Shown here one piece after another: positions 22,352-38,692 of a DNA stretch of 64,000 nt. The DNA is from Rhizobium leguminosarum bv. viciae USDA 2370 (GTDB lineage: Bacteria > Pseudomonadota > Alphaproteobacteria > Rhizobiales > Rhizobiaceae). The translations under genes were made by a program, and so were the position numbers. The stretch is from assembly GCF_002008365.1 (NCBI RefSeq), contig NZ_MRDL01000037.1:62001-126000 (forward strand), given 5' to 3'. The notes beneath the pieces were generated by a model. That model was not told the origin of the DNA and did not search any database. It was given only the letters and a program-made list of their open reading frames with translations. Position 1 is the first letter of the stretch. The number at the start of each line of letters is the position of its first letter.

Positions 22352-22705
22352 GTGTTGATTGGGGTCCCTGCTCTTGAAGGGATTCGAACTACCGCCCCGC
22401 TCCTCGAAAGCGAATTTTTCTGGAGGTTGATCGATACAGCGCAATCAAGTCGCTCTCGCAATTACGAAAATATTTCGATCGAGAGGCGCTTCGGTCGGCA
22501 ACGCTGCACTATCGCGATGACAGGCGCTGCGATGCTGCTTGAGGATGCAAGCCGATAGCCGCGCACGGCCTTTCGTTCCGCTATTGTCACCCGACAAAGA
22601 AACTGCCATCATGGACTGGCAGGCTCCAATGGGCCGCTGATATTCCATGAGCAGGGTAGCTCTCGACCGGAAACGGGCGGGAGCTTTTTTATTTTTTGGT
22701 GGACG
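22352..22705 (+). promoter_or_regulatory. Long leader region upstream of amiC
   Basis: A 354-base non-coding stretch between nicR and the AmiC gene. Its end is an intrinsic terminator (22658-22697) that finishes only 8 bases before the amiC start. It should hold the amiCR promoter and an attenuator that an AmiR-type protein can relieve. An earlier short stem CTGCCA/TGGCAG spans about 22603-22622. No gene is seen. Confidence 0.6.
22658..22697 (+). terminator. Intrinsic terminator/attenuator before amiC
   Basis: AGCTCTCG (22658-22665) pairs with CGGGAGCT (22678-22685) with one G-U pair. The inner CCG/CGG stem closes a GAAA tetraloop (22670-22673). T6-A-T6 follows (22685-22697). The ribosome site GGTGG lies just after the T-run, so the hairpin attenuates amiC itself rather than ending nicR. 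Confidence 0.8.
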
Positions 22706-23857
22706 ATGATGCATTCAGAAAGCTGGCGTGTCGGTGTGCTGTTCTCCGAAACGGGTGTGACCGGAGCGGTGGAAAAAACCCAAAGGGCGGCAACGTTGCT
22801 GGCGATCGACGAAATCAACGCGGCGGGAGGCGTGCTCGGGCGGGCTATCGAGCCCATTGTGTACGATCCGCAATCGACGCCCAATCTCTACAAGGAACTT
22901 GCAGTCAGGCTTTGCGACGAAGATCGCGTCCGGGTCGTATTCGGTTGCCATATGTCGAGCACCCGCAAAGCCGTCCTTCCCGTCATCGAGGCCCGTGACG
23001 CTTTGCTGTTTTATCCGACGCTGTACGAGGGGTTCGAATATTCCCGGCACTGCATCTATACGGGGGCGGCCCCCAACCAAAACTCGGTCCAGTTGGTCGA
23101 CTTCCTGACCAGGCATTATGGAAAGCGGGTTTTCCTCGTGGGCTCGAACTACGTCTATCCTTATGAATCCAACCGGACGATCAGCGACCTTTTTCTTCAG
23201 GTCGGCGGACAGGTGCTGGACGAGATGTATGTTCCCCTGAACCTCAAAACCGAAGACGTCGCCAAAATCATCCGGCATATTCACGCGGCAAAGCCGGACG
23301 TCATCTATTCGACCATTGTCGGTGACGGTATCATCCCCTTCTACACAGCATTCAAGGAGGCCGGATTCGATGCGGCGACGATGCCGATCTCGAGCCAGTC
23401 GACCAGCGAGGCCGACGTGATCCGCATGCGGCCGGAGGTGGCCGCAGGGCACATTACCGCCGCCCCCTTCTTTGCGTCTCTGGATACGCCACGCGCCCGC
23501 GCCTTCGTCTCCGCTTACGAACGGCGCTATGGCTTGCAGATGCCGCCCACAGCACCAGCCGAAGCCGCCTACTTCCAGGTTTATCTCTATGCGGCGGCTT
23601 TGCAGCACGCCGGCAGCGACAGGCTCGAGGAGCTTCTGCCGGCTCTTTCTGAAGTCGAGTACGATGCACCGCAGGGGGCGGTTAAGATAGACCGGCTGAC
23701 GAACCACACGCATCTGTGGCCGAGAGTGGCAAGGGTGAATGCGCAGGGCAGCTACGACATCGTCTACGATCCGTCGCTCCGGGTCGCGCCTGATCCGTTC
23801 ATGCGCGAATATCGCCCGGACTTCACGCAGTCTTCCCCGCATAGCGTCCCGGTTTGA
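22706..23857 (+). CDS. amiC: AmiC-like cytoplasmic amide sensor (periplasmic-binding-protein fold)
   Basis: A 383-residue protein of the Leu/Ile/Val-type binding fold with no signal peptide, as in Pseudomonas AmiC, which binds short amides and holds AmiR inactive. The sequence begins WRVGVLFSETGVTGAVE and contains VFGCHMSSTRKAVLPV and FLVGSNYVYPYESNRT, shared with the exported binding protein at 24724, so sensor and importer probably see the same ligand. It is followed after 11 bases by the ANTAR protein gene. Start at 22706, with a second ATG three bases on. Confidence 0.88.
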   Translation: MMHSESWRVGVLFSETGVTGAVEKTQRAATLLAIDEINAAGGVLGRAIEPIVYDPQSTPNLYKELAVRLCDEDRVRVVFGCHMSSTRKAVLPVIEARDALLFYPTLYEGFEYSRHCIYTGAAPNQNSVQLVDFLTRHYGKRVFLVGSNYVYPYESNRTISDLFLQVGGQVLDEMYVPLNLKTEDVAKIIRHIHAAKPDVIYSTIVGDGIIPFYTAFKEAGFDAATMPISSQSTSEADVIRMRPEVAAGHITAAPFFASLDTPRARAFVSAYERRYGLQMPPTAPAEAAYFQVYLYAAALQHAGSDRLEELLPALSEVEYDAPQGAVKIDRLTNHTHLWPRVARVNAQGSYDIVYDPSLRVAPDPFMREYRPDFTQSSPHSVPV

Positions 23858-23868
23858 GAGGGAGCGAG

Positions 23869-24477
23869 ATGTCATTCGCCCTTCTCAGGGATCTGCGGGA
23901 TCTCAAAGTTGTGGTCATCCACCCTCGGACATCCGAGGGAGATTTTCTCGTGGATCATCTGCGCCGTATCGGTTGCATGGTCAATTGTCTCTGGCCGGTG
24001 CCGGCCGAATTGCCGCATGGCACGGATGTCGTCTTCCTTGCCATGGAAGACGAGGCGAGACCGGAAATCGAGCGTCTGCTGAAGTCCTTTCCCAACCCGG
24101 CCCCGACCATGCTTGCCATTGTCGGTTACGAAAACCCCTCAACGTTGCAGATCGTACTGGAAAGCGGCGCGCTTGCCATCGTCGAAAGACCGATCAAACC
24201 CTTCGGCCTCCTCACCAATCTGGCCATCGCCCGCAACCTGTGGCTCGAACGCCAGAAGCTCGTCAAGGAGGCACGCAAGTACAAGCGCAAGGTTCTAGGT
24301 GACCAGAAACTGGCACGGGCAAAAGCGATTCTGATGGCCAACCGCGGCACCAGCGAGACCGAGGCCTACCGCGAAATGCGCGAGCAGGCGATGGCCCGGC
24401 GCGTGCCCATCGATGAAATCGCCAATTCGATTATCAACGCCGAACAACTCTTGCGCCCAGCCCAGAAACATGATTAG
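23869..24477 (+). CDS. amiR: AmiR-like ANTAR RNA-binding antiterminator
   Basis: A 202-residue protein with an N-terminal degenerate receiver domain (LKVVVIHPRTSEGDFLVDHL, lacking an obvious phosphoacceptor pocket), a coiled linker (ARNLWLERQKLVKEARKYKR) and a C-terminal ANTAR helix bundle (KLARAKAILMANRGTSETEA, MARRVPIDEIANSII). AmiR binds leader RNA and prevents terminator formation when AmiC releases it. The ATG at 23869 has GAGAGGGAGCG just upstream. Both flanking leaders contain terminators, its expected targets. Confidence 0.92.
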   Translation: MSFALLRDLRDLKVVVIHPRTSEGDFLVDHLRRIGCMVNCLWPVPAELPHGTDVVFLAMEDEARPEIERLLKSFPNPAPTMLAIVGYENPSTLQIVLESGALAIVERPIKPFGLLTNLAIARNLWLERQKLVKEARKYKRKVLGDQKLARAKAILMANRGTSETEAYREMREQAMARRVPIDEIANSIINAEQLLRPAQKHD

Positions 24478-24723
24478 TTTTTCATGTGTTTCGAACGAAA
24501 CGCCTCCGGCACATCCCTTCGCTTGACGAAGCCATGTGCCGCTGTTGCACACGGCGCAGCCGTGATGCGGTGATGGCAAGGGTGCCCGCAGGCTGTGACA
24601 AGCCTCGCGGGTTTTTTGTTGTCTGCTGACAGTGACGTCAGTTCTCTACCCATTTCCGGCATGAAAGCCTCGCCGTTCGGCGGGCCGTGCCGTCGTGCGC
24701 CAATCAAAAAAAGGGGAACCAAG
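24478..24723 (+). promoter_or_regulatory. Structured leader RNA of the amide/urea-type importer operon
   Basis: This 246-base leader holds two strong hairpins and an intrinsic terminator. Hairpin 1 (24508-24540) is GGCACAT/ATGTGCC, a symmetric CC/CC internal loop, then CTTCG/CGAAG. Hairpin 2 (24550-24564) is CACGG/CCGTG around CGCAG. The terminator is at 24585-24617. Position right after an ANTAR-protein gene argues for AmiR-dependent antitermination. I could not confirm the A1/G4 hexaloop consensus of ANTAR targets. Confidence 0.7.
24585..24617 (+). terminator. Attenuator terminator before the importer operon
   Basis: CCCGC-A-GGCT (24585-24594), hexaloop GTGACA, then AGCC-TC-GCGGG (24601-24611) and six T residues (24612-24617). 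It lies 106 bases before the binding-protein start, so it attenuates that operon. Confidence 0.82.
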
Positions 24724-25974
24724 ATGGTGTTCAACAGACGTGAATTTTTGAAAACCGCAGCCACCGCTTCTGCCGCGATCGCCCTGCCGGCTCTGGGCAG
24801 CCGCGCCTTCGCAGCCGATCCTATCAAGGTCGGTGCGCTCTATTCGCAAACGGGCGGGCTTTCGGTTGCAGAAAAGCTTCTGGCAAACGGCGTCACGATG
24901 GCCGTTGCCGAAATCAACGCGGCCGGCGGTGTTCTCGGCCGTCCGGTCGAGGTGGTCGTCGAAGATGGAGCTTCCGATCCGAAGACCTTCAGCGAGAAAG
25001 CTTCGAAGCTGATCCTCAAGGACAAGATCTCCACCGTGTTCGGCTGCCATACCTCGGCCAGCCGCAAGGCCGTGCTGCCGATCTTCGAGCGACGGGGCGC
25101 GATGCTGTTCTACCAGACACATTACGAAGGCTTCGAGTGCTCGCGCAACGTCGTCTATTCCGGTGCCGTTCCGAACCAACAGCTCTCCAACTACATCCCC
25201 TGGATCGTCGAGAAACTGGGCAAGAAGAAATTCTTCATCGTCGGCTCGAACTATGTCTATCCGCGCGAGATGGCCAAGGTTTCCAAGAAGCTGATCGAGG
25301 CAGCCGGCGCCGAATGGGTGGCGGACGAATATCTGGAGCTTGGCCATTCGGAATGGGCCGTCATGGTCAGCAAGATCAAGGAATCGGGCGCCGACGTGGT
25401 CCTGTCCAACGTGGTCGGCGACTCCATCATCGCCTTCTATCGTGAGTTCAAGAACCAGGGGCTTTCACAGGAGGTTCTGCCGATCTGCGCGACGGTCACC
25501 TCCGAAATCGAAATCGCGGCGATGGGCGCCGAATATGCGGCAGGAAGCTATACCTCCTTCCCCTATTTCATGTCGATCGACACACCGGCAAACAAGAGCT
25601 TCATCGACCGCTTCAGGACGTTCGTCAACGATCCAAAAGCCGTTACTTACCATTCACTCGAAGCCGCCTATTTCCAGGTCTTCCTGTGGAAGCAGGCCGT
25701 CGAAAAATCCGGCGATCTTTCTGCGGAGGCGATCAGGGCCGGCATTCGCGGCCAAACCTACGAAGCACCCGGCGGCAAGGTGACCACCGATCCCGATAAC
25801 CTGCATTGCTGGCTGACGCCGCGCATCGGGCAATGGCAGGCGGACGGCCAGAGCAAGGTGGTGAACGCCTACCCGGCCCCGATCAAGCCCCTGCCCTATT
25901 CGGCCTATGGCGAGACGGAGAGCAATCTATTCTGCACCAGCAACGGTCTCGACGCCGCAAAGCTCAAGGGCTGA
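24724..25974 (+). CDS. ABC substrate-binding protein, urea/short-chain amide type
   Basis: A 416-residue periplasmic binding protein of the UrtA/FmdD group. The Tat-like signal begins VFNRREFLKTAATASAAIAL with cleavage after AFA. Family features include VFGCHTSASRKAVLPIF, AMLFYQTHYEGFECSRNVVY and a SNVVGDSIIAFYREF segment. The ATG at 24724 has AAAAGGGGA upstream; the in-frame extension to 24595 crosses the terminator and is rejected. It heads a five-gene importer followed by hydrolase genes. Urea, formamide-type amides or a nitrile-derived amide are plausible ligands. Confidence 0.9.
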   Translation: MVFNRREFLKTAATASAAIALPALGSRAFAADPIKVGALYSQTGGLSVAEKLLANGVTMAVAEINAAGGVLGRPVEVVVEDGASDPKTFSEKASKLILKDKISTVFGCHTSASRKAVLPIFERRGAMLFYQTHYEGFECSRNVVYSGAVPNQQLSNYIPWIVEKLGKKKFFIVGSNYVYPREMAKVSKKLIEAAGAEWVADEYLELGHSEWAVMVSKIKESGADVVLSNVVGDSIIAFYREFKNQGLSQEVLPICATVTSEIEIAAMGAEYAAGSYTSFPYFMSIDTPANKSFIDRFRTFVNDPKAVTYHSLEAAYFQVFLWKQAVEKSGDLSAEAIRAGIRGQTYEAPGGKVTTDPDNLHCWLTPRIGQWQADGQSKVVNAYPAPIKPLPYSAYGETESNLFCTSNGLDAAKLKG

Positions 25975-25991
25975 CCCCTTCCCCGCGACGT

Positions 25992-26013
25992 CCCGCCATC
26001 CATGGATGGCGGG
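25992..26013. repeat. Perfect 22-base palindrome between binding-protein and permease genes
   Basis: The arms CCCGCCATCCA and TGGATGGCGGG form an uninterrupted palindrome with no T-run. Such hairpins after binding-protein genes often stabilise the upstream mRNA so that the binding protein is made in excess of the membrane parts. Confidence 0.7.
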
Positions 26014-26118
26014 ATCATCTCTCGGTAAGGCCGGCCTCCCCTCTTCTTCCGCAAGCTGCCATCCGGATGGGCAAGGCGCAGGAGAGTTCGGCCCGCCCTT
26101 CTCACGAACGGTGGCGTT

Positions 26119-27012
26119 ATGCTCGACATTCTCTTTATCGGCCTCAGTCTCGCCTCGATCCTTCTTTTGGTCGCGCTTGGCCTTGCCATCACCTACGGCG
26201 CCATGGGCGTCATCAACATGGCCCATGGCGAAATGGTCATGATCGGCGCCTATGTCGCCGTCCTCTCCGGCATCTGGCTAAAAGCAAGCCTTCTCTTCGC
26301 GATCCCTCTGGCCTTCGTCGTCACGGCCCTGCTCGGCCTGCTGATCGAGCGGGTGGTCGTCCGGCGACTCTACGGCCGTCTGCTGGACACGCTTCTCGCC
26401 ACCTGGGGAATAGCCATCCTTTTGCAGCAGGCCGTGCGGCTCGAGTTCGGCCTGTCCTTTTTCGACATTCACGTCGAAGGCCTGGGGGCCGGCCTGCAGA
26501 ACGTCGCCGTGCCTGTCTACCTGCAGGGCACGTTCAGGCTCGCCGGCGCTGATATCAACGCCTACCGCGCCTTCATCATCGCCGTTGCCGCCGCGCTGAC
26601 ACTGGCGACATGGTTCATCCTCTACCGGACGGCGGCCGGCATGCAGGTCCGCGCCATCATCCGGAACCCGAAAATGGCCGCAGCCTGCGGCATCGACGTG
26701 AAACGCGTCAACGCCATGACCTTCGCGTTCGGGTCGGGCCTTGCCGGCGTCGCCGGCGTGATGATGTCCGGCTTCAAGACCGTCTTTCCCGACATGGGCA
26801 CGACGATGGTCGTCGACGGCTTCATGGTCGTGGTGACCGGCGGGGTCGGCAGCCTTTTCGGCACCATCCTCTCCTCAGGCCTGCTCGGCGAGATCAATGC
26901 CCTGGTGGCCATCGGTACGAACGACATCCTGGCGCGCGCCGTCGTGTTCGGCGTCGTCATCTTCGTCATCCTCGTCAAGCCCAGCGGGCTGTTCTCGTTC
27001 AAGGGACGCTGA
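26119..27012 (+). CDS. Branched-chain/urea-type ABC permease (LivH/UrtB)
   Basis: A 297-residue inner-membrane permease. The N-terminal helices (LDILFIGLSLASILLLVALG, then GVINMAHGEMVMIGAY) and C-terminal GVVIFVILVKPSGLF are the LivH/UrtB signature. It forms the pore with the LivM-type partner encoded one base after its stop. It follows the palindrome that separates it from the binding-protein gene. Confidence 0.93.
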   Translation: MLDILFIGLSLASILLLVALGLAITYGAMGVINMAHGEMVMIGAYVAVLSGIWLKASLLFAIPLAFVVTALLGLLIERVVVRRLYGRLLDTLLATWGIAILLQQAVRLEFGLSFFDIHVEGLGAGLQNVAVPVYLQGTFRLAGADINAYRAFIIAVAAALTLATWFILYRTAAGMQVRAIIRNPKMAAACGIDVKRVNAMTFAFGSGLAGVAGVMMSGFKTVFPDMGTTMVVDGFMVVVTGGVGSLFGTILSSGLLGEINALVAIGTNDILARAVVFGVVIFVILVKPSGLFSFKGR

Positions 27013-27013
27013 C

Positions 27014-28153
27014 ATGAGAATTGAACGGAAATTCCAGATCGCGGCTTATGTGCTTTTCATCGCGGTGATCTTTGCAGCCCCCGTTTTCGGCGACGAATTC
27101 TGGCTGAATCGCATTTCGAAATACCTGGTCTACGGAATGCTGGGCGTCGCCATCGCGCTCACATGGGGATATGCCGGTATTCTCAATCTCGGCCAGGGAC
27201 TGTTTTTCGGCCTGGGCGCCTACATGCTGGCCATGTCGTTGAAGCTGTCGAGCCTGACCAGTCTCCAACAGGGTTCCGACAAGCCGGTTCCGGATTTCAT
27301 GCTCTGGAATGCCGAGCCCGGCGCGCCGACGGAACTTTGCTGCATCAACAAGGGCTCATTCCTCTGGCTTCCCTTTCAAAGCCAGTCGGTGGGTCTTGTG
27401 CTCGGCATCGCGCTTCCGGTGGTGATTGCCGGCGCACTCGGTATGCTGGTTTTCCGCAAGCGCATTTCCGGCGTTTTCGTCTCGATCATCACGCTGGCGC
27501 TCGTTCTGCTCGTCCGCCTCGTCATGGTCGATGCGCAGCCGGTGACGAACGGCTTCAACGGCCTGACGGATCTCGGCTGGCTCACGATCGGCGGCGTCGA
27601 ATTCGATCCCTACAGCCGGGCGACCTATTATCTATGCGCCGTAAGCCTGTCGCTGACACTCATCTGTGCGCGTCTTATCGTGGAAACCAGAGCGGGCATG
27701 ATCCTGCAGGCGATCCGCGATGACCAGGTGCGCGCCCGGTATCTCGGCTTCGACGTCTCGCTCTACCAGGTCTTCTTCTTTGTCATTTCGGCAGGGATCG
27801 CCGGCGTTGCCGGCATGCTCTACGTCGTCGTCGCGGAGTTTGCCTCTCCGACCTTCATGGATCTGTCCTTCTCCGTGACGATGGTCGTCTGGGCTGCCGT
27901 CGGCGGCCGCTCGTCTCTGCTTGGCGCCTGCATCGGCGCAATTCTGATCAACATGATCGAAGCGGAGGTCAGCGAGACCGAGGCGCTGGTCGAGGCGTGG
28001 AAAGCGATCATCGGTCTGATCTTCGTGCTGGTCGTTCTGTTCATGCCGCGCGGCCTTGGCGGCGTCGCGCATGACGTGCTGCGGTGGTTCGTCCGCCGGC
28101 GCAAACCAGCTGAGGCCCTTCCGGCCCTGCCGCGGCAAAGCGAGGCATTGTGA
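27014..28153 (+). CDS. Branched-chain/urea-type ABC permease (LivM/UrtC)
   Basis: A 379-residue inner-membrane permease. Features of the UrtC/LivM group are WGYAGILNLGQGLFFGLGAY, SVTMVVWAAVGGRSSLLGA and the C-terminal LVVLFMPRGLGG. A periplasmic loop of about 50 residues between early helices includes a Cys-Cys pair (ELCCINKG), unusual for this family but typical of some amide-type versions. Start at the ATG 27014, directly after the LivH-type gene. Confidence 0.93.
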   Translation: MRIERKFQIAAYVLFIAVIFAAPVFGDEFWLNRISKYLVYGMLGVAIALTWGYAGILNLGQGLFFGLGAYMLAMSLKLSSLTSLQQGSDKPVPDFMLWNAEPGAPTELCCINKGSFLWLPFQSQSVGLVLGIALPVVIAGALGMLVFRKRISGVFVSIITLALVLLVRLVMVDAQPVTNGFNGLTDLGWLTIGGVEFDPYSRATYYLCAVSLSLTLICARLIVETRAGMILQAIRDDQVRARYLGFDVSLYQVFFFVISAGIAGVAGMLYVVVAEFASPTFMDLSFSVTMVVWAAVGGRSSLLGACIGAILINMIEAEVSETEALVEAWKAIIGLIFVLVVLFMPRGLGGVAHDVLRWFVRRRKPAEALPALPRQSEAL

Positions 28154-28154
28154 T

Positions 28155-28904
28155 ATGAGTGCCATTGCATTGACCATCGACGGTCTCGGCGTCGATTTCG
28201 GCGGTTTCCGCGCCGTCAACAATGTCAGCATCACCGTCTTCGACGGCGAGTTACGTGTGCTGCTTGGCGCAAACGGCGCCGGTAAGACGACCTTGATGGA
28301 TCTGGTGAGCGGCAAGACGCGCAGCACCCAGGGCAGGGTCTTCGTCTACGACACCGACATCACCAACTGGCCCGAACACCGCATCGCACGCGCCGGCATA
28401 GGCCGGAAATTCCAGATCCCCAGCGTCTTTCGGGACCTTACCGTGCGACAGAATCTGGAGGTCGCCAATTGCCGCAATCCTTCGGTACTCGCCAATCTTC
28501 GGTTCGGCTTTTCGCGTGCAGAGGCGAACCGCGTCGACGACGTCATTGCCCTCATCGGCCTCGATGCCGAACACGATGTGATGGCCGCCTATCTCAGCCA
28601 TGGCCAGACGCAGTGGCTGGAGCTCGGCATGCTCATCGTCCAGGATCCCAAGGTGGTTCTGCTTGACGAGCCGACAGCCGGGATGACCCAGGCCGAAACC
28701 CGCAAGACCGCCGAGATCATCAACAATCTCAAAGGCCGCCATACGATCCTCGTCGTCGAACACGACATGGGATTCGTCCGCGAGATCGCCGAACGCATCA
28801 CCGTTCTCCATCTCGGAGAGGTTCTGGCGGAGGGAAGCGTCGAAGATATCGAACGCAATCCGAAAGTCCGTGAAGCCTATCTCGGTTCGAAAGGAATATC
28901 CTGA
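28155..28904 (+). CDS. ABC ATPase (LivG/UrtD)
   Basis: A 249-residue ATPase. Walker A is GANGAGKTT, Walker B is VVLLDEPTAGM and the H-loop is LVVEHDMGFVREIA. The signature region reads AYLSHGQTQWLELGM, the divergent form usual for UrtD-type subunits. It overlaps the next ATPase gene by one base (TGATG). Confidence 0.93.
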   Translation: MSAIALTIDGLGVDFGGFRAVNNVSITVFDGELRVLLGANGAGKTTLMDLVSGKTRSTQGRVFVYDTDITNWPEHRIARAGIGRKFQIPSVFRDLTVRQNLEVANCRNPSVLANLRFGFSRAEANRVDDVIALIGLDAEHDVMAAYLSHGQTQWLELGMLIVQDPKVVLLDEPTAGMTQAETRKTAEIINNLKGRHTILVVEHDMGFVREIAERITVLHLGEVLAEGSVEDIERNPKVREAYLGSKGIS

Positions 28905-29599
28905 TGCTGTCGTTGAAAGACGTGCACAGCTATTACGGCCGCAGCCATGTCCTGCACGGCGTCACCCTCGATGTTCCGGCCGGCAAGGTGACGAGCATCC
29001 TCGGCCGCAACGGCACCGGCAAGACAACGCTGTTGAAAACCTTGATGGCATTGACCGACCGCATGACGGGCGAGATGCTTCTGCAGGGAAAGGACATGGC
29101 CGCATCCCCGACACATGAAAGGGCAAGGGCCGGCATCGCCTACGTCCCCCAGGGCAGAGAGATCATTCCCGATTTTACCATCCGCGAGAACATCCTGATG
29201 GGCGCCTTTGCCCGCACCGATGGCAAACGCGAGATTCCAGCGCTGGTGCCAGAGCTTTTTCCATACCTGATGGCCAATCTCGATCGGCCGGGTGGCGTGC
29301 TTTCGGGCGGCCAGCAGCAGCAGCTCGCCATCGCCCGCGCGCTGGCCGCAGATCCGAAAGTGCTGCTTCTCGATGAACCTAACGAAGGCATCCAGCCCTC
29401 CATCGTCGAGGAGATTGAAAAGATCATCATCCGGCTCAATCGCGAAATCGGCATGACGATCATCCTCGTCGAGCAAAACGTCGCATTTGCGCGGCACGCG
29501 TCTCACCGGTTCGCGATGCTTGAGAAGGGGCGCGTGGTCGCGGTCGGCGCCATCGATGCTCTCTCCGACGCGCTTGTTCACCGGCATATGGCTGTCTGA
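28904..29599 (+). CDS. ABC ATPase (LivF/UrtE)
   Basis: A 231-residue ATPase. Walker A is GRNGTGKTT, the signature LSGGQQQQLAIARAL, Walker B VLLLDEPNEGIQPSIVEEI and the H-loop VEQNVAFA. It completes the importer (binding protein, two permeases, two ATPases). The hydrolase gene follows after 39 bases. Confidence 0.93.
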   Translation: MLSLKDVHSYYGRSHVLHGVTLDVPAGKVTSILGRNGTGKTTLLKTLMALTDRMTGEMLLQGKDMAASPTHERARAGIAYVPQGREIIPDFTIRENILMGAFARTDGKREIPALVPELFPYLMANLDRPGGVLSGGQQQQLAIARALAADPKVLLLDEPNEGIQPSIVEEIEKIIIRLNREIGMTIILVEQNVAFARHASHRFAMLEKGRVVAVGAIDALSDALVHRHMAV

Positions 29600-29638
29600 A
29601 ACAGCCGGCTATCCTCCACAAAGACAATGGGAACGACA

Positions 29639-31378
29639 ATGACATCCACACAAAACTACACCGCCGCCACCATCCAGTTCGAACCCACCATGTTCGAGAA
29701 GGCGCGCAATATCAGCCGGCTGGCAGCCCTTTGCGAGGAGGCAGCGGAGGCAGGCGCGCGCCTGATCGTCACTCCCGAAATGGGAACGACCGGCTATTGC
29801 TGGTTCGACAGAGCCGAAGTGAAACCTTTCGTCGAGACTATCCCCGGACCGACCACGGATGTTTTCCAGGCCATTGCCAGCAAACACCGCTGCCATATCG
29901 TCGTCGGCATGCCGGAAGTCGACCCGGCGAGCGAACTCTACTACAATACCGCCGTGCTGATCGGCCCTGAGGGCGTCGTTGGCCGGCATCGCAAATCACA
30001 TCCCTATATTGCGGAGCCGAAATGGGCTGCCAACGGTGACATCGTCCACGAGGTATTCGAAACGGAAATCGGCCGGATCTCGATGCTGGTCTGCATGGAT
30101 CTGCACTTCTTCGAGACGGCGCGTCTGGAGGCGCTCGCGGGTGCCGACATCATCTGCCATATCTCCAACTGGCTGCAGGAGCGCACGCCGGCACCCTACT
30201 GGATCAATCGCGCCTTCGAAAACGCCTGCTATGTCATCGAGAGCAACCGTTGGGGACTCGAGAGAACCGTGCAGTTTTCCGGCGGAAGCTGCGTGATCGA
30301 TCCCGACGGCACGGTCGCCGCATCCATCGATACGGGCGACGGGATCGCCTATGGCACTATCGATCTCGCTCTTGCCCGCCGCCGCGAGGTCCTGTGCGAA
30401 CCGGTGTTTGAGTCCCGCCGGCCCGAACTCTACATGAACATGATGACCAACAGCTTCACCTGGAACCCGGGCGACTACTTCCGTCTCTATGGCTACCAGC
30501 CGATCCCGCGCGGACGCGCATCGCGTGCCGCAGTCGCCCAGTTCGCCCCCTCCTCCGTCGTCGCAGACAATCTCGCCCGCATCGCCCATCTGGCAGCCGA
30601 GGCGAAGGCAACAACAGCGCCGGACATTCTGGTTTTCCCGGAACTGTCGCTGACCGGACTGGAGGCGCCGCAAAGCCGGGCGGAGCTGCTCTCGGGCCCG
30701 ACGGTATCGGCCTTCGTTCGTCTGGCGATGAAGCTCGGTTTCTATCTTGTCGCCGGATTTGCCGAGGCGGATGGGGACAAGGTTTATAACAGTGCGGTTC
30801 TCGCTGGCCCCGAGGGGCTTGTGGGAAGCTACCGCAAGACGCATCTCGGCATTTCCGACATCTGGGCGACGGCCGGCGACGAATGGAAAGTCTACGATCT
30901 AGCGATCGGCCGCGTCGGTCTGGCGATCGGCCACGACGCGCTCTATCCGGAAGCCATCCGTTCGCTCGCGCTGTTGGGATGCGACGTGGTCGCTTGCCCA
31001 TCAGCCATAGCTGGCACTTTCACCGGCGGCCACAACGGCACGAAAATTCCGCATAACTATCCGATCCCCAAGGGCGCCGATCCCTACCACTGGCATGCGT
31101 TGCGCGTGCGCGGCGGCGAGAACAATGTCTATTTCGCCTTCGCCAATGTCCTGGATGCGGCGCGGGGATACCTGGGCAAGAGTGCGGTGTTCGGGCCGGA
31201 TTCCTTTGCCTTTCCGCGCCAGGAATCGGCAATCCTGGACGAGGACGGGATTGCGGCAGCAACCGTCGACACCACCAATCTCGAAACGCCGTATCCGACG
31301 AACATCGTGCGGCGAAAGGATCTTGTCGTCATGCGCCAGCCGCATCACTATCAGCCGCTCGTCAAATGGCATCAGTGA
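29639..31378 (+). CDS. Tandem-domain nitrilase-superfamily hydrolase, second domain without catalytic Cys
   Basis: A 579-residue protein made of two carbon-nitrogen hydrolase domains. Domain 1 (about 6-255) has the full triad Glu47 (VTPEMGTTG), Lys119 (RHRKSHPY) and Cys152 (SMLVCMDLHF). Domain 2 (about 295-575) keeps Glu335 (VFPELSLTG) and Lys400 (SYRKTHLG), but the nucleophile site reads LAIGHDALYPE, so Gly431 replaces Cys. Domain 1 should hydrolyse an amide or nitrile; domain 2 is probably structural or regulatory. The start at 29639 has GGGA upstream; an ATG at 29627 would add four residues. It follows the importer genes and AmiC/AmiR, replacing the AmiE amidase of Pseudomonas. Confidence 0.88.
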   Translation: MTSTQNYTAATIQFEPTMFEKARNISRLAALCEEAAEAGARLIVTPEMGTTGYCWFDRAEVKPFVETIPGPTTDVFQAIASKHRCHIVVGMPEVDPASELYYNTAVLIGPEGVVGRHRKSHPYIAEPKWAANGDIVHEVFETEIGRISMLVCMDLHFFETARLEALAGADIICHISNWLQERTPAPYWINRAFENACYVIESNRWGLERTVQFSGGSCVIDPDGTVAASIDTGDGIAYGTIDLALARRREVLCEPVFESRRPELYMNMMTNSFTWNPGDYFRLYGYQPIPRGRASRAAVAQFAPSSVVADNLARIAHLAAEAKATTAPDILVFPELSLTGLEAPQSRAELLSGPTVSAFVRLAMKLGFYLVAGFAEADGDKVYNSAVLAGPEGLVGSYRKTHLGISDIWATAGDEWKVYDLAIGRVGLAIGHDALYPEAIRSLALLGCDVVACPSAIAGTFTGGHNGTKIPHNYPIPKGADPYHWHALRVRGGENNVYFAFANVLDAARGYLGKSAVFGPDSFAFPRQESAILDEDGIAAATVDTTNLETPYPTNIVRRKDLVVMRQPHHYQPLVKWHQ

Positions 31379-31390
31379 GAGACCGGCAAG

Positions 31391-32548
31391 ATGTCCACAT
31401 TCACATTCGCGACCGTCCCGCAGATCATCGCGGGACCGGGTTGCATCACGAGGCTTTCGGAGCTGACGAAAACCCGGCTTGGACCGCGCGTCATGGTGAT
31501 TTCGGACGATGGGGTCGTCAAAGCGGGGCTCGTTCAGCCGGCCCTGACAAGCCTTGCGGACGGCGGCGCTGAAATATCGATCTTCACCGGTGTTGTCGCC
31601 GACCCGCCGGACGCCATCATTCATGCGGCTGTGGCGCAGGCGATCGGTTTCGGCGCCACGGGTGTACTTGGCATCGGCGGCGGCTCGTCGCTTGATGTCG
31701 CAAAACTTGTGGCTCTGCTCTGCAAAAGCGACGAAGCGCTCGATGATATCTATGGAGTGGGCAAAGTCAGCGGGCAGCGCTTGCCGCTGGTGCTTGTGCC
31801 CACAACGGCAGGCACCGGCTCCGAAGTCACACCGATTTCCATCGTCACCACGGGCGCATACGAGAAAAAAGGCGTCGTATCGCCAGTCCTGCTGCCGGAT
31901 GCGGCGCTTCTCGACGCGGAGTTGACCCTCGGCCTGCCTCCAGCCGTGACGGCTGCAACGGGGATTGACGCCATGGTGCACGCCATCGAGGCTTTCACCT
32001 CCGCGAGTGCAAACAACAATCCGGTTTCCCGTTCCCTTGCCAAGGAGGCCCTTCGGCTTCTCGGGGCGAATTTAGAGATCGCAGTGATGAGAGGAACCGA
32101 TCTGGCCGCCCGGCAGGCGATGCTGCTCGGCGCGATGCTGGCCGGTCAGGCCTTTGCCAATTCGCCGGTCGCTGCCGTCCATGCTCTCGCCTACCCGATC
32201 GGTGGCCGCTATCACGTTGCGCACGGCCTTTCCAACAGCCTGGTCCTTCCGCATGTCCTGCGCTTCAACGCGACGGTGTGCGGTGATGCCTATGCGGAAC
32301 TGGCACCTTGCCTTTTTCCTCATCTTGGGCCCGCCGGTCTGGCTGAGCGGCTTTCCGGTTTTGTCGAAGGATTGGCAATACTGCCTGTGCGCCTCAACCT
32401 GCCCGTACGCCTGCGCGATGTCGGAATTCCCAAGGACGGGCTTCCCCTGCTAGCGGAAAGTGCGATGGAACAGACCCGCTTGCTGGTCAACAATCCGCGC
32501 ACGGTGTCGCTGTGGGACGCCACTCAGATCTATGAGGCGGCTTGGTAA
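31391..32548 (+). CDS. Iron-dependent alcohol dehydrogenase
   Basis: A 385-residue group III alcohol dehydrogenase. The NAD-binding motif is GIGGGSSLDVAK (94-105), then VPTTAGTGSEVTP. Metal ligands are Asp193, His197, His264 and His278 (GIDAMVHAIEAF, AAVHALAYPIGG, HVAHG). It probably oxidises an alcohol or reduces an aldehyde or keto acid released from the imported amide or nitrile. It follows the nitrilase gene by 12 bases and is the last gene of this operon. Substrate unknown. Confidence 0.9.
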   Translation: MSTFTFATVPQIIAGPGCITRLSELTKTRLGPRVMVISDDGVVKAGLVQPALTSLADGGAEISIFTGVVADPPDAIIHAAVAQAIGFGATGVLGIGGGSSLDVAKLVALLCKSDEALDDIYGVGKVSGQRLPLVLVPTTAGTGSEVTPISIVTTGAYEKKGVVSPVLLPDAALLDAELTLGLPPAVTAATGIDAMVHAIEAFTSASANNNPVSRSLAKEALRLLGANLEIAVMRGTDLAARQAMLLGAMLAGQAFANSPVAAVHALAYPIGGRYHVAHGLSNSLVLPHVLRFNATVCGDAYAELAPCLFPHLGPAGLAERLSGFVEGLAILPVRLNLPVRLRDVGIPKDGLPLLAESAMEQTRLLVNNPRTVSLWDATQIYEAAW

Positions 32549-32761: not shown

Positions 32762-33730
32762 TCATGTCAGAGGCATTGCCACGGGCCGCATCGGTGCGCC
32801 GGTTGCGCCGCGCAGCTTGATGCAGGCCCCGAAAAAGGCGAATTCGTAGAGTCTTTCGGCGGCCAGCTCCTCAAGAAAAGCCATCTCAAGGATTGGCACG
32901 CCTGCTTCCGCCAACAGGTAGGTATGGACGGGGAAGAAATTGAGCTCGTGTGCCGATGGCGTCTGCTCCAGCGTCAGATTGTCGGCGCCGATCATGAGCG
33001 CGCCGTGCTTGGCGATATACTCCGCACCCTCGCGGTTGAGGCCGGGCGTGTTTCGGGTGAAGGCCATATCCGGCCACAGGAGCATCTGGCCGGTGCGCAG
33101 CAGCACCACGTCGCCGGGCAGGATCTTCAATCCCTGCTTCTTCAGGCATCCCGCGATGTCGGCCTTGCCGATCGCATGGCTCGGCGGCAACGTGTCGACG
33201 CCATGCATGGCCGCGATATCGAGGAGAATGCCGCGCGCGAAAATCGGCGGATATTTTTCCGGGCCGCAAATATCCCAGGCGCGGCTGCCGAGGTGATCAC
33301 GCGCCGTGAAGCCATTGAATATCTCGCCGTTATAGCCGAAGTGGTTGAACGTATCGATATGCGTGCCACAATGGGTGTACATCGAAATACTGTCGCCGGA
33401 ATAGCCGACGAGTTCGTTCTGTTGGCGCGTCACGCCCATGGTGTTTGCGACGATCTCGCCCTGCGGCGTGTGGGTCATCCAGATCTGATAGGGCTGGTCA
33501 CCGGCGCCGAACCAGCCGGGCATGCCGACGAAATGGTCGACCGAAAGGTCGAAGACTTTCGACGCATCGGTGCGGCCGATGATTGCGGAACGCGACTTGG
33601 CGTCGATCAGGTTCAGCATGCCGATCTCGTCGTCGCTGCCATAGGGGCTCTTCGTCACCTTATGGAATTCGGCATTGTAGGCGATGATCTTGCTCTTGGT
33701 CGCTTCGTCGACATAACACGCCATGCACAT
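32762..33730 (-). CDS. Cyclase-family metal-dependent hydrolase (PF04199, kynurenine-formamidase-like)
   Basis: A 322-residue protein with the cyclase/KynB-type metal motif: His120, His124, Asp126 and His130 in THCGTHIDTFNHF. Family members hydrolyse amide or lactam bonds (for example formylkynurenine, isatin). A second family segment is VHTYLLAEAGVPILE. It is the last gene of the long minus-strand imide/amide operon, 45 bases after the amidase, and converges with the alcohol dehydrogenase gene. It likely opens or trims a cyclic amide made in this pathway. Confidence 0.85.
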   Translation of the reverse strand: MCMACYVDEATKSKIIAYNAEFHKVTKSPYGSDDEIGMLNLIDAKSRSAIIGRTDASKVFDLSVDHFVGMPGWFGAGDQPYQIWMTHTPQGEIVANTMGVTRQQNELVGYSGDSISMYTHCGTHIDTFNHFGYNGEIFNGFTARDHLGSRAWDICGPEKYPPIFARGILLDIAAMHGVDTLPPSHAIGKADIAGCLKKQGLKILPGDVVLLRTGQMLLWPDMAFTRNTPGLNREGAEYIAKHGALMIGADNLTLEQTPSAHELNFFPVHTYLLAEAGVPILEMAFLEELAAERLYEFAFFGACIKLRGATGAPMRPVAMPLT

Positions 33731-33775
33731 TGCAAGTCTCCTTGTTGACCGTCGCAGCCGCCGCAGCCGCCACCT

Positions 33776-35149
33776 TCAGATCGTTTCGCCGCGAATGACC
33801 GGTTCGGCGACGAGCGCCATCGACAATAGCCGCTCGTCGCGGCGTGCCAGCCCCGATAGCAGGAAGCCAACCGGCATGCCGGCTTCACCCGTGCCGCAGG
33901 GGATCGACACCCCGCACCAGTCGAGAAAATTGCCGAGCAGCGTGTTGCGCAGTGTCTTGCCGTTGGTGGCGATGAAGAGCTGGTCGTCGGTCTTCAACGG
34001 CTCGAGCAGCGGTGCCACATGCGCGACAGTCGGGAAGGCAATCAGCCGGTCGCCGACCAGCCGGTCCACCGCCTCGATCAGCCGCGTGCGGGCAGAGAGA
34101 ATGTCGAGGTAGTGCGAAAGGGTGATCTTTTCACCGAAGCTGGTGCGCGAGACCACACGCGGGTCGATCAGTCCGGCATCCGGCCCGGTGATCCGCGCCC
34201 GGTGCAGCCAGTAGGCCTCCGCCGTTACCAGGGCTCCATGGCTTGCCATCAGATGCAGAATTTCCGCAAAGGCCGGGATTTCCAGTGGCGTGCAGATGAC
34301 GCCGGCGGCGGACAAACGCGCGACGGCCGCCTCAAAGGCCGCAACAACACCCGGCTCGGCCTCGTCGAAGACGACGTTGGTGGGAATGACGAGTTCGAGC
34401 CCGGCAAGCGGACGGTGGCTGGCCGTCGGGGCTGTCAACCCACGCATCGCCGCATCGACCCAGACGGCATCCTGTACCGAGCGGCAGAGCGGCCCGAGCG
34501 AATCCAGGCTGCCGGCAAGCGGAAAGACGCCCGTCATCGGATAACGCCCGCGCGTCGCCTTGTAGCCGACGATACCGTTCAGCGCCGCTGGAATACGCAC
34601 CGAGCCGCCCGTGTCGGAGCCGATCGAGACCGGCACGAGACCGGCTGCCACCGCAACACCCGAACCGGAGGACGAGCCGCCGGGAATGCGGGCGACATCA
34701 GTACCGCGGGGGTTTTTCGGCGTGCCGAAATGCGGATTGATGCCGAGGCCGGAGAAGGCGAACTCGCTCATGTTGACCCGGCCGGCTGCGACCATGCCGG
34801 CGCCAGCCAGCGCGGAGACGACGGCAGCGTCGACCGCAGCCGGTGCCTGATCACGAAGAAGCAGCCTCGACCCCGCCGCCGTGACACTGCCGGCAACATC
34901 GAAGAGATCCTTCCAGGCGACCGGAATGCCCTCGAGCAAGCCGCGCGAACGACCATCTTTCAGCCGCTTCGATGAAGCTTCGGCCTCCGCCATTGCCCGC
35001 TCACGCGTCAGCGAAATGAAGATCGCCTTGTCGTCATGGCTTTCTATCGCGGCAAAGACCTGTTCGGCCACAGCGACCGGATCGACGCTGCCAGCCTGGA
35101 TGAGGGCGGAGAGCTGGGCGATCGAGAGAGAGCCGTAAGGGTGTGCCAT
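33776..35149 (-). CDS. Amidase signature family hydrolase
   Basis: A 457-residue amidase with the Ser-cisSer-Lys triad: Lys80 (VAWKDLFDV), Ser159 (PGGSSSGSG) and Ser183 (SDTGGSVRIP); the 24-residue Ser-Ser spacing matches fatty-acid amide hydrolase. I chose the ATG at 35149 because the conserved N-terminus (LSIAQLSALIQ) starts just after it; the longer frame to 35287 overlaps the preceding gene. It probably cleaves the half-amide formed by an upstream ring-opening hydrolase, releasing ammonia. A role like allophanate hydrolase is an alternative. Confidence 0.9.
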   Translation of the reverse strand: MAHPYGSLSIAQLSALIQAGSVDPVAVAEQVFAAIESHDDKAIFISLTRERAMAEAEASSKRLKDGRSRGLLEGIPVAWKDLFDVAGSVTAAGSRLLLRDQAPAAVDAAVVSALAGAGMVAAGRVNMSEFAFSGLGINPHFGTPKNPRGTDVARIPGGSSSGSGVAVAAGLVPVSIGSDTGGSVRIPAALNGIVGYKATRGRYPMTGVFPLAGSLDSLGPLCRSVQDAVWVDAAMRGLTAPTASHRPLAGLELVIPTNVVFDEAEPGVVAAFEAAVARLSAAGVICTPLEIPAFAEILHLMASHGALVTAEAYWLHRARITGPDAGLIDPRVVSRTSFGEKITLSHYLDILSARTRLIEAVDRLVGDRLIAFPTVAHVAPLLEPLKTDDQLFIATNGKTLRNTLLGNFLDWCGVSIPCGTGEAGMPVGFLLSGLARRDERLLSMALVAEPVIRGETI

Positions 35150-35168
35150 TCTGTCTTTCCCGCTTTGC

Positions 35169-36383
35169 TCACGCCGCCACGAACTGCATCCAGCGGCGCA
35201 CCAGATAATTGTGTTCATCCATGGTCGTGTTCCACACGGCGATCGAATTGGCGCGCTGCCAATAGGAGCCGCCGCTGCGCACCGCACCGGCCTTGATGCG
35301 GAGGAGCCCGTCGGGCCCCGGCAGGTCCGTCGCAGCCGGCAGGCCCTCGTACCAATAGTCCCACTCGGCCGGTGTCATGTGCGGGCGCGAGCGTCCCGGC
35401 GTCGACATGTAATAGCCCTGCCGGGCCACCACCGCGCCGGGCCAGCCCGAAATCCACCAGTTGAGATAGTCGTAGGCCGCGTCGAGCATCCGGCCGGAGA
35501 GCCGTTTCGAAAGGCAGAGCCCGCCATGCCAGGCGCGATAACCCTCGGCGGGATTGGCGAGTTCGACTGGGAAGCCGCGCAGGTTCAGCTTGCTGATGCC
35601 AAGCGACCACATCGACTGGATCTGCGTGTCGCTCTTCGTCATCAGGTTCGCCGCGTCCTCGGCCGAACGCCAGAAGCCGCGGAAGAAGCCGGCCTTCTTG
35701 CGCTCTTCCAGAATATCCAGCAGCCGGTCGATTTCCTCGATGCTCATGTTGCCGAGATTGTCGAAGGTCATCAGCCCGGCCGACTGCGCCGCAAGTGCTG
35801 CGTCGAAGATGCCGATCGCCGGCTCGTTGACGAGTGCAGCGCGCCCGTGCCAGCGCGGATCGAGCAGTGCTGCCCAGGAGCTCATCTGGTTGGAATTTGC
35901 CGCATCCGTCCGGTAGGCGAAGCTGTCGAAATTATGGGTCGTCGGCAGCATCGAAATGCGCTGCGAGGGCGTTTCGGCAAGCGCCAGGTTCGGCTGCACG
36001 AAAAGCTTGGTCACCGGCGCATCGCCCTGCCCGATCCGCGCATTCGGCCCGATGCGGCCCGTTTTCGTCAGATCGGTGATCTCGTCCCAAAGCGTGATCC
36101 GCTCGATCTCGATCGGCTGCACGGCGCGCCAGTACCAGACGATGTCGAGGTTGTGGAAGCACTGGTCGTAGATGTCGTAGGTCATCGGCTCCAGCGCCGC
36201 CTTGTGCTGGGCGGTCATGAAGTCCTGATTGTCGAATTCGATATCCATGCCCAGATCGCGCTCGGCACCGAGCCGGAGTTCTTCCAGCAGCGAAATCGCC
36301 GTGCCGAGGATGCGCAGCTTGATCCGGCCCTCTGTATGGAGGGCGGGTGTCGGAAAGCTCTTCGGCGTCGGCATTTTTCTCAT
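35169..36383 (-). CDS. PotD-type solute-binding protein without signal peptide
   Basis: A 404-residue protein homologous over its length to the exported binding protein at 39908-41143 (compare MLPTTHNFDSFAYR with MVPSVFNFDSVGY, and QRANSIAVWNTTMDEHNYLV with the other's TRAANVAYWHQWPDEYDHLI). Its N-terminus MRKMPTPKSFPTPALHTEG has no hydrophobic segment or lipobox and moves straight into the first strand (KLRILGTAISLLEEL). The start overlaps the CobW stop (ATGA), leaving no room for a leader. Either it works in the cytoplasm as a sensor or ligand buffer, or it leaves the cell by another route. Being inside the operon and intact, it is not a casual remnant. Confidence 0.85.
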   Translation of the reverse strand: MRKMPTPKSFPTPALHTEGRIKLRILGTAISLLEELRLGAERDLGMDIEFDNQDFMTAQHKAALEPMTYDIYDQCFHNLDIVWYWRAVQPIEIERITLWDEITDLTKTGRIGPNARIGQGDAPVTKLFVQPNLALAETPSQRISMLPTTHNFDSFAYRTDAANSNQMSSWAALLDPRWHGRAALVNEPAIGIFDAALAAQSAGLMTFDNLGNMSIEEIDRLLDILEERKKAGFFRGFWRSAEDAANLMTKSDTQIQSMWSLGISKLNLRGFPVELANPAEGYRAWHGGLCLSKRLSGRMLDAAYDYLNWWISGWPGAVVARQGYYMSTPGRSRPHMTPAEWDYWYEGLPAATDLPGPDGLLRIKAGAVRSGGSYWQRANSIAVWNTTMDEHNYLVRRWMQFVAA

Positions 36384-37420
36384 GGCTGCATTTCCTCGAT
36401 CCGCCGCGGTGCGACTTGTGTCACGCCGAGCCCGTTGAAGGCGTCAAACGATCGCTCGATTGCCGCGGGCTCGATGCCGTCGACGATGAAGACGATGCGG
36501 GACCGCCGGTCCCCGCCGGACCAGGATTGCATATGAACGGGCGTGTGGACCAGATGCTGCACCCCGTGGATCGCCACGGGAAAGTCCTCGCCCTCGATGT
36601 TGAGAATCCCCTTGACCCGAAGGATACGGTCGCCGTGCCGGTTGAGCAGCATGGTCAGCCAGATGCCGAAGGCTGTCCAGTCGATCGTGCCTTCGCTCAC
36701 CAGCACGAAGGACCGGATGCGGCCGGAATGTTCGCCTGCAAGAACAGGCCCGGGATCGTCGCAATAGAAGCCGCCTGGCGATTGCATCGCCTCGGCGCGG
36801 CAGGTTGTGGTATCTTCCAGCAGACTGATGACATCATCCGACGCCAGGACGATCGGCGCATCAGGATTGATCTGCCGGATCATCGCTGTGATCCGCGCGA
36901 CTTGGCCGGCTTCAGCGATATCGGCCTTGGTCAGCACCAGAAGGTCGGCCACCGCCACCTGCCGCATCGGCTCGCGGTAGGCGGCAAGCTGCGTCCCGGC
37001 ATTGACGGTATCGACGGTGGCAATCACGCCCGAGGATCGGAAATGATGCCGCAGAACCGGATCAGCCTTCAACGTCGAAAGAACGGGGAAAGGATCGGCA
37101 AGCCCGGTGCTCTCGATGATGATCCGGTCGAAGGGCGGGACGATGCCGCGCTCGCGCTTCGAATGCAGGTCGCGGATCGCATCGACCAATTCGCCCCGCA
37201 CCGTGCAGCAAAGGCAACCGGATTGCAGCAACACCATGTTCTCGTCGATGCGCTCGAGCAGGTGATGGTCGAGGCCGACCTCGCCGAATTCGTTGATCAG
37301 CACCGCGGCGTTGCAGAGCGCCGGGTCGGCCAGCAACCGGCGTAGCAGCGTCGTCTTGCCGGATCCGAGAAAACCGGTCAGCAACGTGACGGGCGTGAAG
37401 GCCGGAAACGCATCAGCCAT
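36380..37420 (-). CDS. CobW/COG0523-type metal-chaperone GTPase
   Basis: A 346-residue G3E GTPase. Walker A is GFLGSGKTT (16-24), the metal motif GCLCC has Cys69, Cys71 and Cys72, and INEFGEVGLD, ESTGLADP and TKADIAE complete the GTPase signature. A C-terminal CobW domain follows. Such proteins deliver Zn, Co, Fe or Ni to client enzymes. The likely clients are the metal hydrolases of this operon (38639 and 33730). The ATG at 37420 overlaps the preceding small gene's stop by 8 bases. Confidence 0.92.
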   Translation of the reverse strand: MADAFPAFTPVTLLTGFLGSGKTTLLRRLLADPALCNAAVLINEFGEVGLDHHLLERIDENMVLLQSGCLCCTVRGELVDAIRDLHSKRERGIVPPFDRIIIESTGLADPFPVLSTLKADPVLRHHFRSSGVIATVDTVNAGTQLAAYREPMRQVAVADLLVLTKADIAEAGQVARITAMIRQINPDAPIVLASDDVISLLEDTTTCRAEAMQSPGGFYCDDPGPVLAGEHSGRIRSFVLVSEGTIDWTAFGIWLTMLLNRHGDRILRVKGILNIEGEDFPVAIHGVQHLVHTPVHMQSWSGGDRRSRIVFIVDGIEPAAIERSFDAFNGLGVTQVAPRRIEEMQP

Positions 37421-37745
37421 GGCGGTTCGCCTCCAGCCGGTCGAGAAGCGTCTCGGCCAGCGGATCGAGCGGCCGGCCCGCAAGCCGCTCGGCCGCCGGC
37501 CACAGGTGTCCGAGATCTTCGATGATCTCGGTCTTTCCGGTGCGGGTCGACAGCAGGAAGGAGGATCCCTGCCAGTCGGACATGGAGAGACCAAAGGCGT
37601 CGAGGACGCGGTTGGCAATCGCAACACGGCGGGCGCGCTCGCGCCGGCGGTCGATCCGCTCGGCGGTGCGGGTATAGACCCCGGGTCGCGCGACCGCGTC
37701 GGCCCAGTGCTCGTTACCACCCAGAATACCGCAGAGCGAACACAT
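37413..37745 (-). CDS. Small conserved protein beginning MCSLCG
   Basis: A 110-residue basic protein of unknown function. The N-terminal CSLCG (Cys2, Cys5) looks like half of a metal site, followed by an arginine-rich helix (AERIDRRRERARRVAIANRV) and a C-terminal helical part. I recall similar short proteins next to CobW genes in rhizobia, but no function. It overlaps the CobW gene by 8 bases, implying joint action, possibly as an adaptor or metal donor. Confidence 0.7.
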   Translation of the reverse strand: MCSLCGILGGNEHWADAVARPGVYTRTAERIDRRRERARRVAIANRVLDAFGLSMSDWQGSSFLLSTRTGKTEIIEDLGHLWPAAERLAGRPLDPLAETLLDRLEANRHG

Positions 37746-37757
37746 CGCCTTTACCTC

Positions 37758-38639
37758 TTACTTCTTGCGGGGGAACCGTTTGGCGAAGTCGTCGGCGATC
37801 TCGTTCATCGTCACGAACTTGACGCCGGGATGCTTGATCATGTGGGCGTAGAGACGCTCCAGCATCATCAGAACCTGCGGCCGGCCGGCGACATCAGGGT
37901 GAATCGTGATCGGGAAGACGGCGTAGTCCATTTCGCGATAGACCCAGTCGAACTGGTCGCGCCACATCTGCTCTATGTCGTGCGGGTTGACGAAGCCGTG
38001 GCTGTTTGGCGCCTTCTTGATAAACATCATCGGCGGCAGGTCGTCGAGATACCAAGACGCCGGGATCTCGATGAGATCGGTCTCGTGACCACGCTTCAGC
38101 GGCACCATCCACTCCGACGGCTTCTTCGAATAGTCGATCTTGGTCCAGCTGTCGCCCACGCGGACATAGTAAGGCGTGAAGTCGTTGTGCATGAGCGAAT
38201 GGTCGTATTTGATGCCACGCTCGAGCAGGAGTTCGTTGGTGACGTTGGAGAATTCCCACCAGGGTGCCACATAGCCGGTCGGCCGCTTGCCGGAAAGCTT
38301 GGCGACGAGCTCGATGCACTTGTCGAGCACCTCCGTCTCCTGCTCGCGCGTCATGGCGATCGGGTTTTCATGGGTGTAGCCATGGATGCCGATCTCGTGA
38401 CCGGCATCGGCGACGGCCTGCATCTGCTCCGGAAACGTCTCGATCGAGTGGCCGGGGATGAACCAGGTGGTCTTGATGCCGAAGCGCTCGAAAAGCTTCA
38501 ACAGCCGTGGGCTGCCGACTTCGCCGGAAAACAGGCCCCGCGAGATATCGTCCGGGGAATCCTCGCCGCCATACGAGCCGAGCCAGCCGGCAACGGCGTC
38601 CACGTCGATGCCGAAGCTGCAGAAGATTTCTTTTGCCAT
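37758..38639 (-). CDS. Polysaccharide-deacetylase-fold hydrolase, cyclic imide hydrolase/HpPgdA type
   Basis: A 293-residue NodB-fold metal hydrolase. The metal triad is Asp14 ([13 protein letters not shown]), His86 and His90 ([10 protein letters not shown]), as in Helicobacter PgdA. Other family features are [19 protein letters not shown] and [11 protein letters not shown]. From memory, a Pseudomonas cyclic imide hydrolase of the same length belongs to this subfamily. The absence of a signal peptide, and neighbours that are an amidase, a cyclase-family hydrolase and an importer, favour imide ring opening over peptidoglycan deacetylation. It starts 53 bases after the ATPase gene. Confidence 0.82.
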
Positions 38640-38692
38640 TGCGAGGTCTCCTTGTGATGTTCTCGTTGGTCCGGCTTTGATCGGCCGGCTTT

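Follow-up and report, generated by a model that had tools for sequence, protein, structure and literature searches.

The window, by which we mean the whole stretch of 64,000 nucleotides that was analysed, carries on its forward strand an operon in which AmiC-like and AmiR-like genes, a Urt-type ABC transporter and a tandem gene of the nitrilase superfamily follow one another. The two halves of the tandem protein are referred to below as D1 and D2. The features of the operon, with the matches on which their assignments rest, are as follows.

22706-23857 (+): AmiC-like amide/urea-binding protein (Peripla_BP_5, E 1.1e-143)
23854-24477 (+): AmiR-like antiterminator, start approximate (AmiR_N E 9.2e-40 and ANTAR E 9.4e-13, on 23878-24474)
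24585-24617 (+): intrinsic-terminator-like hairpin plus T-run, between the AmiR and binding-protein genes (-17.9 kcal/mol plus T6)
24625-24642 (+): hexaloop hairpin with A1/G4 loop, ANTAR-target-like (motif search without chance control)
24724-25974 (+): UrtA-like substrate-binding protein, start chosen by reading the sequence (TIGR03407, 402.3 bits on a longer frame from 24595, below the cut-off of 492.75)
26119-27012 (+): UrtB-like permease (TIGR03409, 361.3 bits, cut-off 250.3)
27008-28153 (+): UrtC-like permease, start approximate (BPD_transp_2, E 2.9e-39)
28155-28904 (+): UrtD-like ATPase (ABC_tran E 3.5e-28, BCA_ABC_TP_C)
28904-29599 (+): UrtE-like ATPase (TIGR03410, 311.8 bits, cut-off 285.8)
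29639-30448 (+): D1 (residues 1-270), nitrilase-superfamily domain with Glu47, Lys119, Glu126 and Cys152 (PF00795, 170.6 bits; fold match to 6ypa_D)
30449-30523 (+): interdomain linker (residues 271-295; low pLDDT)
30524-31273 (+): D2 (residues 296-545), predicted pseudoenzyme domain with Gly431 in place of Cys (PF00795, 106.3 bits; fold match to 3ivz_A)
31274-31375 (+): C-terminal tail (residues 546-579), conserved (entropy; R558/R559 conservation)
31391-32548 (+): iron-containing alcohol dehydrogenase, 12 bases 3' of the tandem gene (Fe-ADH, E 7.4e-43)

The first-pass annotation had assigned the tandem gene to an amide-type operon, and the AmiC-like and AmiR_N+ANTAR genes upstream of it bear this out. 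No signal sequence was seen by eye in the AmiC-like protein, which is read as a regulator because it is placed before AmiR. By Pfam, an AmiC-type sensor adjoins an AmiR_N+ANTAR protein both in the window and in L097, and further records carry such a sensor/antiterminator pair annotated as substrate-binding and ANTAR proteins. A separate cluster on the opposite strand, at 32762-41143 (-), encodes a cyclase-family protein, an amidase (above the NF004766 cut-off), two SBP_bac_8 proteins, a CobW-like GTPase, a polysaccharide-deacetylase-like protein and an ABC ATPase; from its gene content it looks like another cluster for the uptake and hydrolysis of nitrogen compounds.

Hairpins followed by T-runs occupy the gap between AmiR and the UrtA-like gene in nine of ten further loci of the window's operon type, several of which are near-copies. 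The reading of this leader as a terminator is weakened by a consensus scan of 22300-31450, which returned a near-chance 9 sites versus 7.5 expected, and by four loci of Bradyrhizobium/Ancylobacter type (L066, L087, L047 and L059) that have no T5 run in the AmiR-UrtA gap. The excerpted text of PMC3369931 gives an A1/G4 hexaloop rule for ANTAR targets. The A1/G4 hexaloop of the window sits downstream, not upstream, of the terminator-like hairpin, and in L026, L028, L029, L032, L036, L038, L041, L056 and L102 a comparable hexaloop follows the T-run. The search required A1 and G4, and the other loop letters differ between loci; no such hexaloop was found in L066, L087, L047, L059 or L124. An Rfam search of window positions 20000-42000 gave one match only, to a microRNA family at E 0.6, far below the cut-off.

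To describe the company of the tandem gene, neighbours were identified at 80 loci by tblastn within the stored flanks, some of which are cut by contig ends. AmiR-like genes were found at 63 of the 80 loci, a count that misses weak copies such as the one that Pfam detects in L097, and UrtB, UrtC and UrtD/E-like genes at 68. The formamidase FmdA was present at 44 and an alcohol dehydrogenase match at 15; gene calls at the compared loci include some antisense frames. The commonest company of the tandem gene is an importer together with the AmiC-AmiR pair, which supports a small amide as the substrate. Gene order varies: in L066, L087, L046 and L047 the tandem gene is separated from UrtE by FmdA, the order on a Klebsiella grimontii plasmid is UrtABCDE-FmdA-AmiC-AmiR-tandem, and the tandem-AmiC-AmiR genes of Pantoea and Alloalcanivorax have a cytosine/purine-type permease beside them. 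Terrilactibacillus (Bacillota, L090) has Urt-like genes without an AmiR-like match, and a PucR-type regulator follows. At seven of the 80 loci (L039, L040, L058, L065, L083, L093 and L105) neither AmiC/AmiR nor Urt-like genes occur in the stored flanks.

The tandem form had been supposed to be uncommon, and matches at E 1e-60 were indeed confined to 20 of 397 genomes of the order, 17 of them at 62% identity or more (the window included) and three at no more than 35%. Five other genomes of the same genus are listed among the 397 and none of these has a match, though other Rhizobium in the 80-locus set do; in R. johnstonii 3841 it lies on pRL12. A search of 72,556 plasmid records gave 105 matches that cover 80% of the query or more; 75 of these have 90% identity or higher and 30 lie below 60%. 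The latter include Klebsiella copies (58%) and Priestia (35%), and 25 of the 105 matching records are from Klebsiella. The genome samples of the separate searches overlap.

Layout and modelled structure of the tandem protein

The tandem gene at 29639-31378 (+) is a single open frame of 579 amino acids, running from an ATG at 29639 to a stop at 31376-31378. The RefSeq start of the R. johnstonii 3841 orthologue corresponds to window position 29627, four codons upstream, so that all residue numbers given here could shift by +4. Both halves, searched separately, score above the curated Pfam PF00795 (CN_hydrolase) cut-off of 23.2 bits, and on this basis the protein is clearly assigned to the nitrilase (CN hydrolase) superfamily. 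Aligned with each other, D1 and D2 share 31% identity across 260 columns (E 7e-25). The two-domain frame is not a product of chance, since it recurs in 93 distinct family sequences, the window's included. The protein had been described as a nitrilase fusion with Glu47, Lys119 and Cys152 in its first domain and Glu335, Lys400 and Gly431 in its second; the match of each half to PF00795 on its own agrees with that description, and all six residue positions are correct.

An AlphaFold2 model of the whole chain reached a pLDDT of 88.9 and a pTM of 0.90, the latter of which we read as a defined, fixed arrangement of D1 and D2 in the model; D2 modelled alone reached 86.2. The nearest solved fold to D1 is the PH0642 amidase 6ypa_D (Z 38.1, rmsd 1.5, 261 aligned), and the D2 model aligns with PaNit 3ivz_A at Z 34.1 and rmsd 2.4 over 231 residues. 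The linker was modelled with a pLDDT of 51 in block 271-280 and 63 in block 281-290, and its family entropy is 1.03 bits versus 1.23 for D2 (40 sequences). In the same 40 sequences the entropy of the tail is only 0.80 bits versus that 1.23; R558 is found in 97 of 100 rows and R559 in 96, and the tail motif RRKDL resembles RRPEL at the end of D1. The tail was modelled poorly (pLDDT 45-69 for residues 551-579). Some VIA alignments span D1 to residue 574, as judged by their end points only, a hint that the tail of D2 may pack on D1.

Conservation and descent of the second domain

The family alignment comprised the window's protein and homologues from the 80 loci and from genomes of the order Rhizobiales, 103 rows in all. 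After removal of L001 (a copy of the window), L002 (a single-domain paralogue) and L099 (a broken frame), 100 rows were kept, 93 of them distinct. Because some genomes entered twice through two collections, most counts are given over distinct sequences. A diverse set of 24 tandem proteins was also compiled, which includes L022/L023, Priestia L126 and the divergent L024, L115, L132, L133, L136 and L137.

The Glu-Lys-Cys triad is complete in D1 and incomplete in D2. Cys152 is present in 93 of 93 distinct sequences and Glu47 and Lys119 in 92 each, with one gap apiece; in the diverse tandems all three are kept in 24 of 24. The corresponding Cys position of D2, residue 431, is occupied by Gly in all 93 distinct sequences, which confirms the claim that D2 lacks the catalytic Cys. 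Close homologues with Cys at 431 would have pointed to a local mutation only, and none was found among the 93; a family search for tandems with the same loss gave Gly in 23 of the 24 diverse proteins and Ala in one, L132. The uniform Gly at 431 argues that the loss is not a local mutation, and by sequence the tandem protein with a dead D2 is a conserved family rather than a singular oddity. No tandem with Cys in both domains was seen among the PF00795 matches listed for 58 genomes; by eye, only two same-frame pairs of PF00795 domains stood out among those matches, the one in the window and G777:C7, and both belong to the tandem family described here.

Two candidates for a substitute nucleophile in D2 were considered and rejected. 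His432, beside the vacant position, is His in 90 of 100 rows, and the remaining ten have T, Y, E, G or F there. Cys448 is invariant in 40 family members and is replaced by Ala in L022-L024.

Several individual copies deserve mention. In L063 (Ancylobacter) the tandem copy looks interrupted, with a stop inside the matched stretch, and those of L092 and L099 (both Bradyrhizobium) look interrupted as well, with split or partial matches. The related tandem nitrilases at L132:1351-3270 and L022:1432-3369 have a signal-like N-terminus by eye, as do L023 and Priestia L126. The signal-like N-termini of L132 and L022 suggest a possible exported branch of tandem nitrilases.

To trace the origin of D2 we built a maximum-likelihood tree of 51 rows, unrooted, from which four long-branch single-domain rows and the near-copies L130 and L131 were left out. 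All 22 D2 domains, some of them on long branches, lie to the same side of one split (96/91), which 94% of 200 bootstrap trees recover. This placement fits one old loss of the Cys and makes a single origin of D2 likely on the sequence data. The D1 domains do not form one group: those of L024, L115, L136 and L137 join single-domain enzymes (92/81), and D1 was united in 6% of the 200 bootstrap trees, which counts against a single origin of the tandem fusion.

Local mutation or ongoing decay was considered as an explanation of the missing Cys, and in its favour D2 does evolve faster than D1: mean pairwise identity among 40 sequences is 0.581 for D2 and 0.746 for D1. However, the ratio dN/dS in nine pairs with close relatives ranges from 0.063 to 0.123 for D2 (0.031 to 0.071 for D1), indicating that D2 is under purifying selection, and its fold is modelled as complete. 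The low dN/dS and the complete modelled fold together suggest that D2 is a maintained nitrilase fold. Set beside the uniform Gly431, they leave decay an exceedingly improbable explanation, and as far as sequence goes the invariant Gly and the dN/dS values rule it out.

Structural and regulatory readings of the second domain

Conservation within D2 is uneven. The elbow helix 431-445 (0.66 bits) and helix 486-496 (0.61 bits) are well conserved, and helices 308-325 (1.86 bits) and 354-366 (1.84 bits) poorly, a gradient that D1 shows as well; the two well conserved helices lie on what we take to be the A-surface side. Excerpts of PMC4700190 describe members of the nitrilase superfamily as A-surface dimers and name one structural exception, and in beta-ureidopropionase a C-terminal helix mediates the hugging of subunits, according to excerpts of PMC10741476. 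The conserved elbow helix, helix 486-496 and tail, together with the pTM, favour an internal pseudo-dimer. We therefore prefer, at a probability of roughly 55%, the reading that the tandem protein is an amide-utilisation enzyme in which the superfamily dimer has been fused into one chain, D1 being the amidase and D2 a structural pseudo-protomer. Against this, the conservation gradient of the D2 helices would also arise from a retained pocket or from a fold core.

In an enzyme of this kind, D2 would pack on D1 across the A-surface in place of a second protomer and would keep the catalytic loops of D1 active with no need for a homodimer, so that a catalytic half and a structural half would do the work of two catalytic subunits. 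The transporter would import the substrate, a small amide or an omega-amide. On binding an amide AmiC would release AmiR, hydrolysis by D1 would yield ammonia and an acid, and the formamidase or dehydrogenase neighbours of some lineages may act on related compounds or products.

The former active site of D2 has nonetheless kept more than a purely structural domain should need. Without a nucleophile, Glu335 persists in 92 of 93 distinct sequences, Lys400 in 87, an acidic residue at 407 (Asp in the window) in 91 and Trp409 in 93, and Glu335 and Trp409 are each found in 24 of 24 diverse tandems. Within the superfamily, beta-ureidopropionase is a known case in which substrate and product exert allosteric control through the oligomer (PMC10741476, in part). 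These observations are consistent with D2 as a regulatory pseudoenzyme, whose ex-active site would bind an amide, an acid or an ammonia-related ligand without hydrolysis and gate D1 allosterically. We hold this to be possible though rather unlikely, because the pocket is not uniformly kept: Lys400 is replaced in six of the 93 distinct sequences (Gln in five, Ser in one) and in seven of the 24 diverse tandems (Gln in five, Ala in two), and Ala456, the equivalent of D1 Asn177, is Ala in 91 of 93. A more specific form of the idea, in which D2 is an ancient nitrilase-fold amide sensor that binds amide or acid in its ex-active site and switches the fused D1 on and off, is more tentative still. If true, it would mean that amide-uptake operons have conserved a single-chain allosteric pair across a range of bacteria reaching from Rhizobium to Bacillota.

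D2 might also have gained a different catalytic or chemical role through other residues. An insert specific to D2 and absent from D1 carries conserved residues (H465 in 97, H484 in 97 and W485 in 99 of 100 rows), and the frequent His432 beside Gly431 could be read in the same way. But residue 432 varies, as described above, and the shorter D2 of L024 and L116 has a gap where H465 and H484 would be, so we consider such a role improbable. The roles of structural pseudo-protomer and ligand sensor are not mutually exclusive; taken together, conservation and models lean toward the pseudo-protomer.

Relation to known enzymes and operons

The archaeal nitrilase-amidase PaNit/PH0642 (3ivz, 1j31, 6ypa; NF040852) is the top-ranked solved relative of both halves, with Z 37.4-38.1 for D1 and Z 34.0-34.2 and rmsd 2.4-4.6 for D2, and its triad is the same as that of D1. 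PaNit/PH0642 is single-domain, however, and the tandem protein scores 259.7 bits against nitrile_Arch NF040852, below the cut-off of 500. Scores are likewise below the cut-offs for the single-domain AmiE (NF009802, 80.6 versus 427 bits) and for formamidase AmiF (NF009803, 102.1 versus 406), and by these scores the protein is placed outside the AmiE, AmiF and nitrile_Arch equivalogs.

The CDD entries nitrilase_1_R1/R2 (cd07578, cd07579) cover, as we understand them, the first and second nitrilase domain of an uncharacterised tandem subgroup, which may be the tandem family described here; the entries are not known to mention a loss of the Cys. These names occur in no paper of the literature searched, and among the matches listed no papers on tandem or inactive nitrilase domains were found; the tandem with a dead half is apparently an undescribed variant of a known superfamily. 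Records label the protein only "nitrilase-related carbon-nitrogen hydrolase" or "amidohydrolase". The present assignment turns this vaguely labelled protein into an enzyme that can be tested, belonging to an operon of AmiC-AmiR type that rhizobial and enterobacterial plasmids carry. A live and a dead half in one chain also let the part of the second protomer in catalysis be probed, since mutations can be confined to the partner half and leave the active half unaltered.

At the level of the operon, the closest likeness to the Pseudomonas ami operon lies in the AmiC-like sensor and AmiR_N+ANTAR antiterminator beside a nitrilase-superfamily gene, with a candidate terminator-like leader. The Pseudomonas operon includes AmiB/AmiS, in the place of which the window has a Urt-type ABC transporter, and where AmiE has one domain the enzyme here is a tandem. 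The excerpted text of PMC13209695 describes a Klebsiella plasmid operon with acetamidase activity in cell lysates; on that account it shares amiC, amiR, an ABC transporter and an amidase with the operon of the window.
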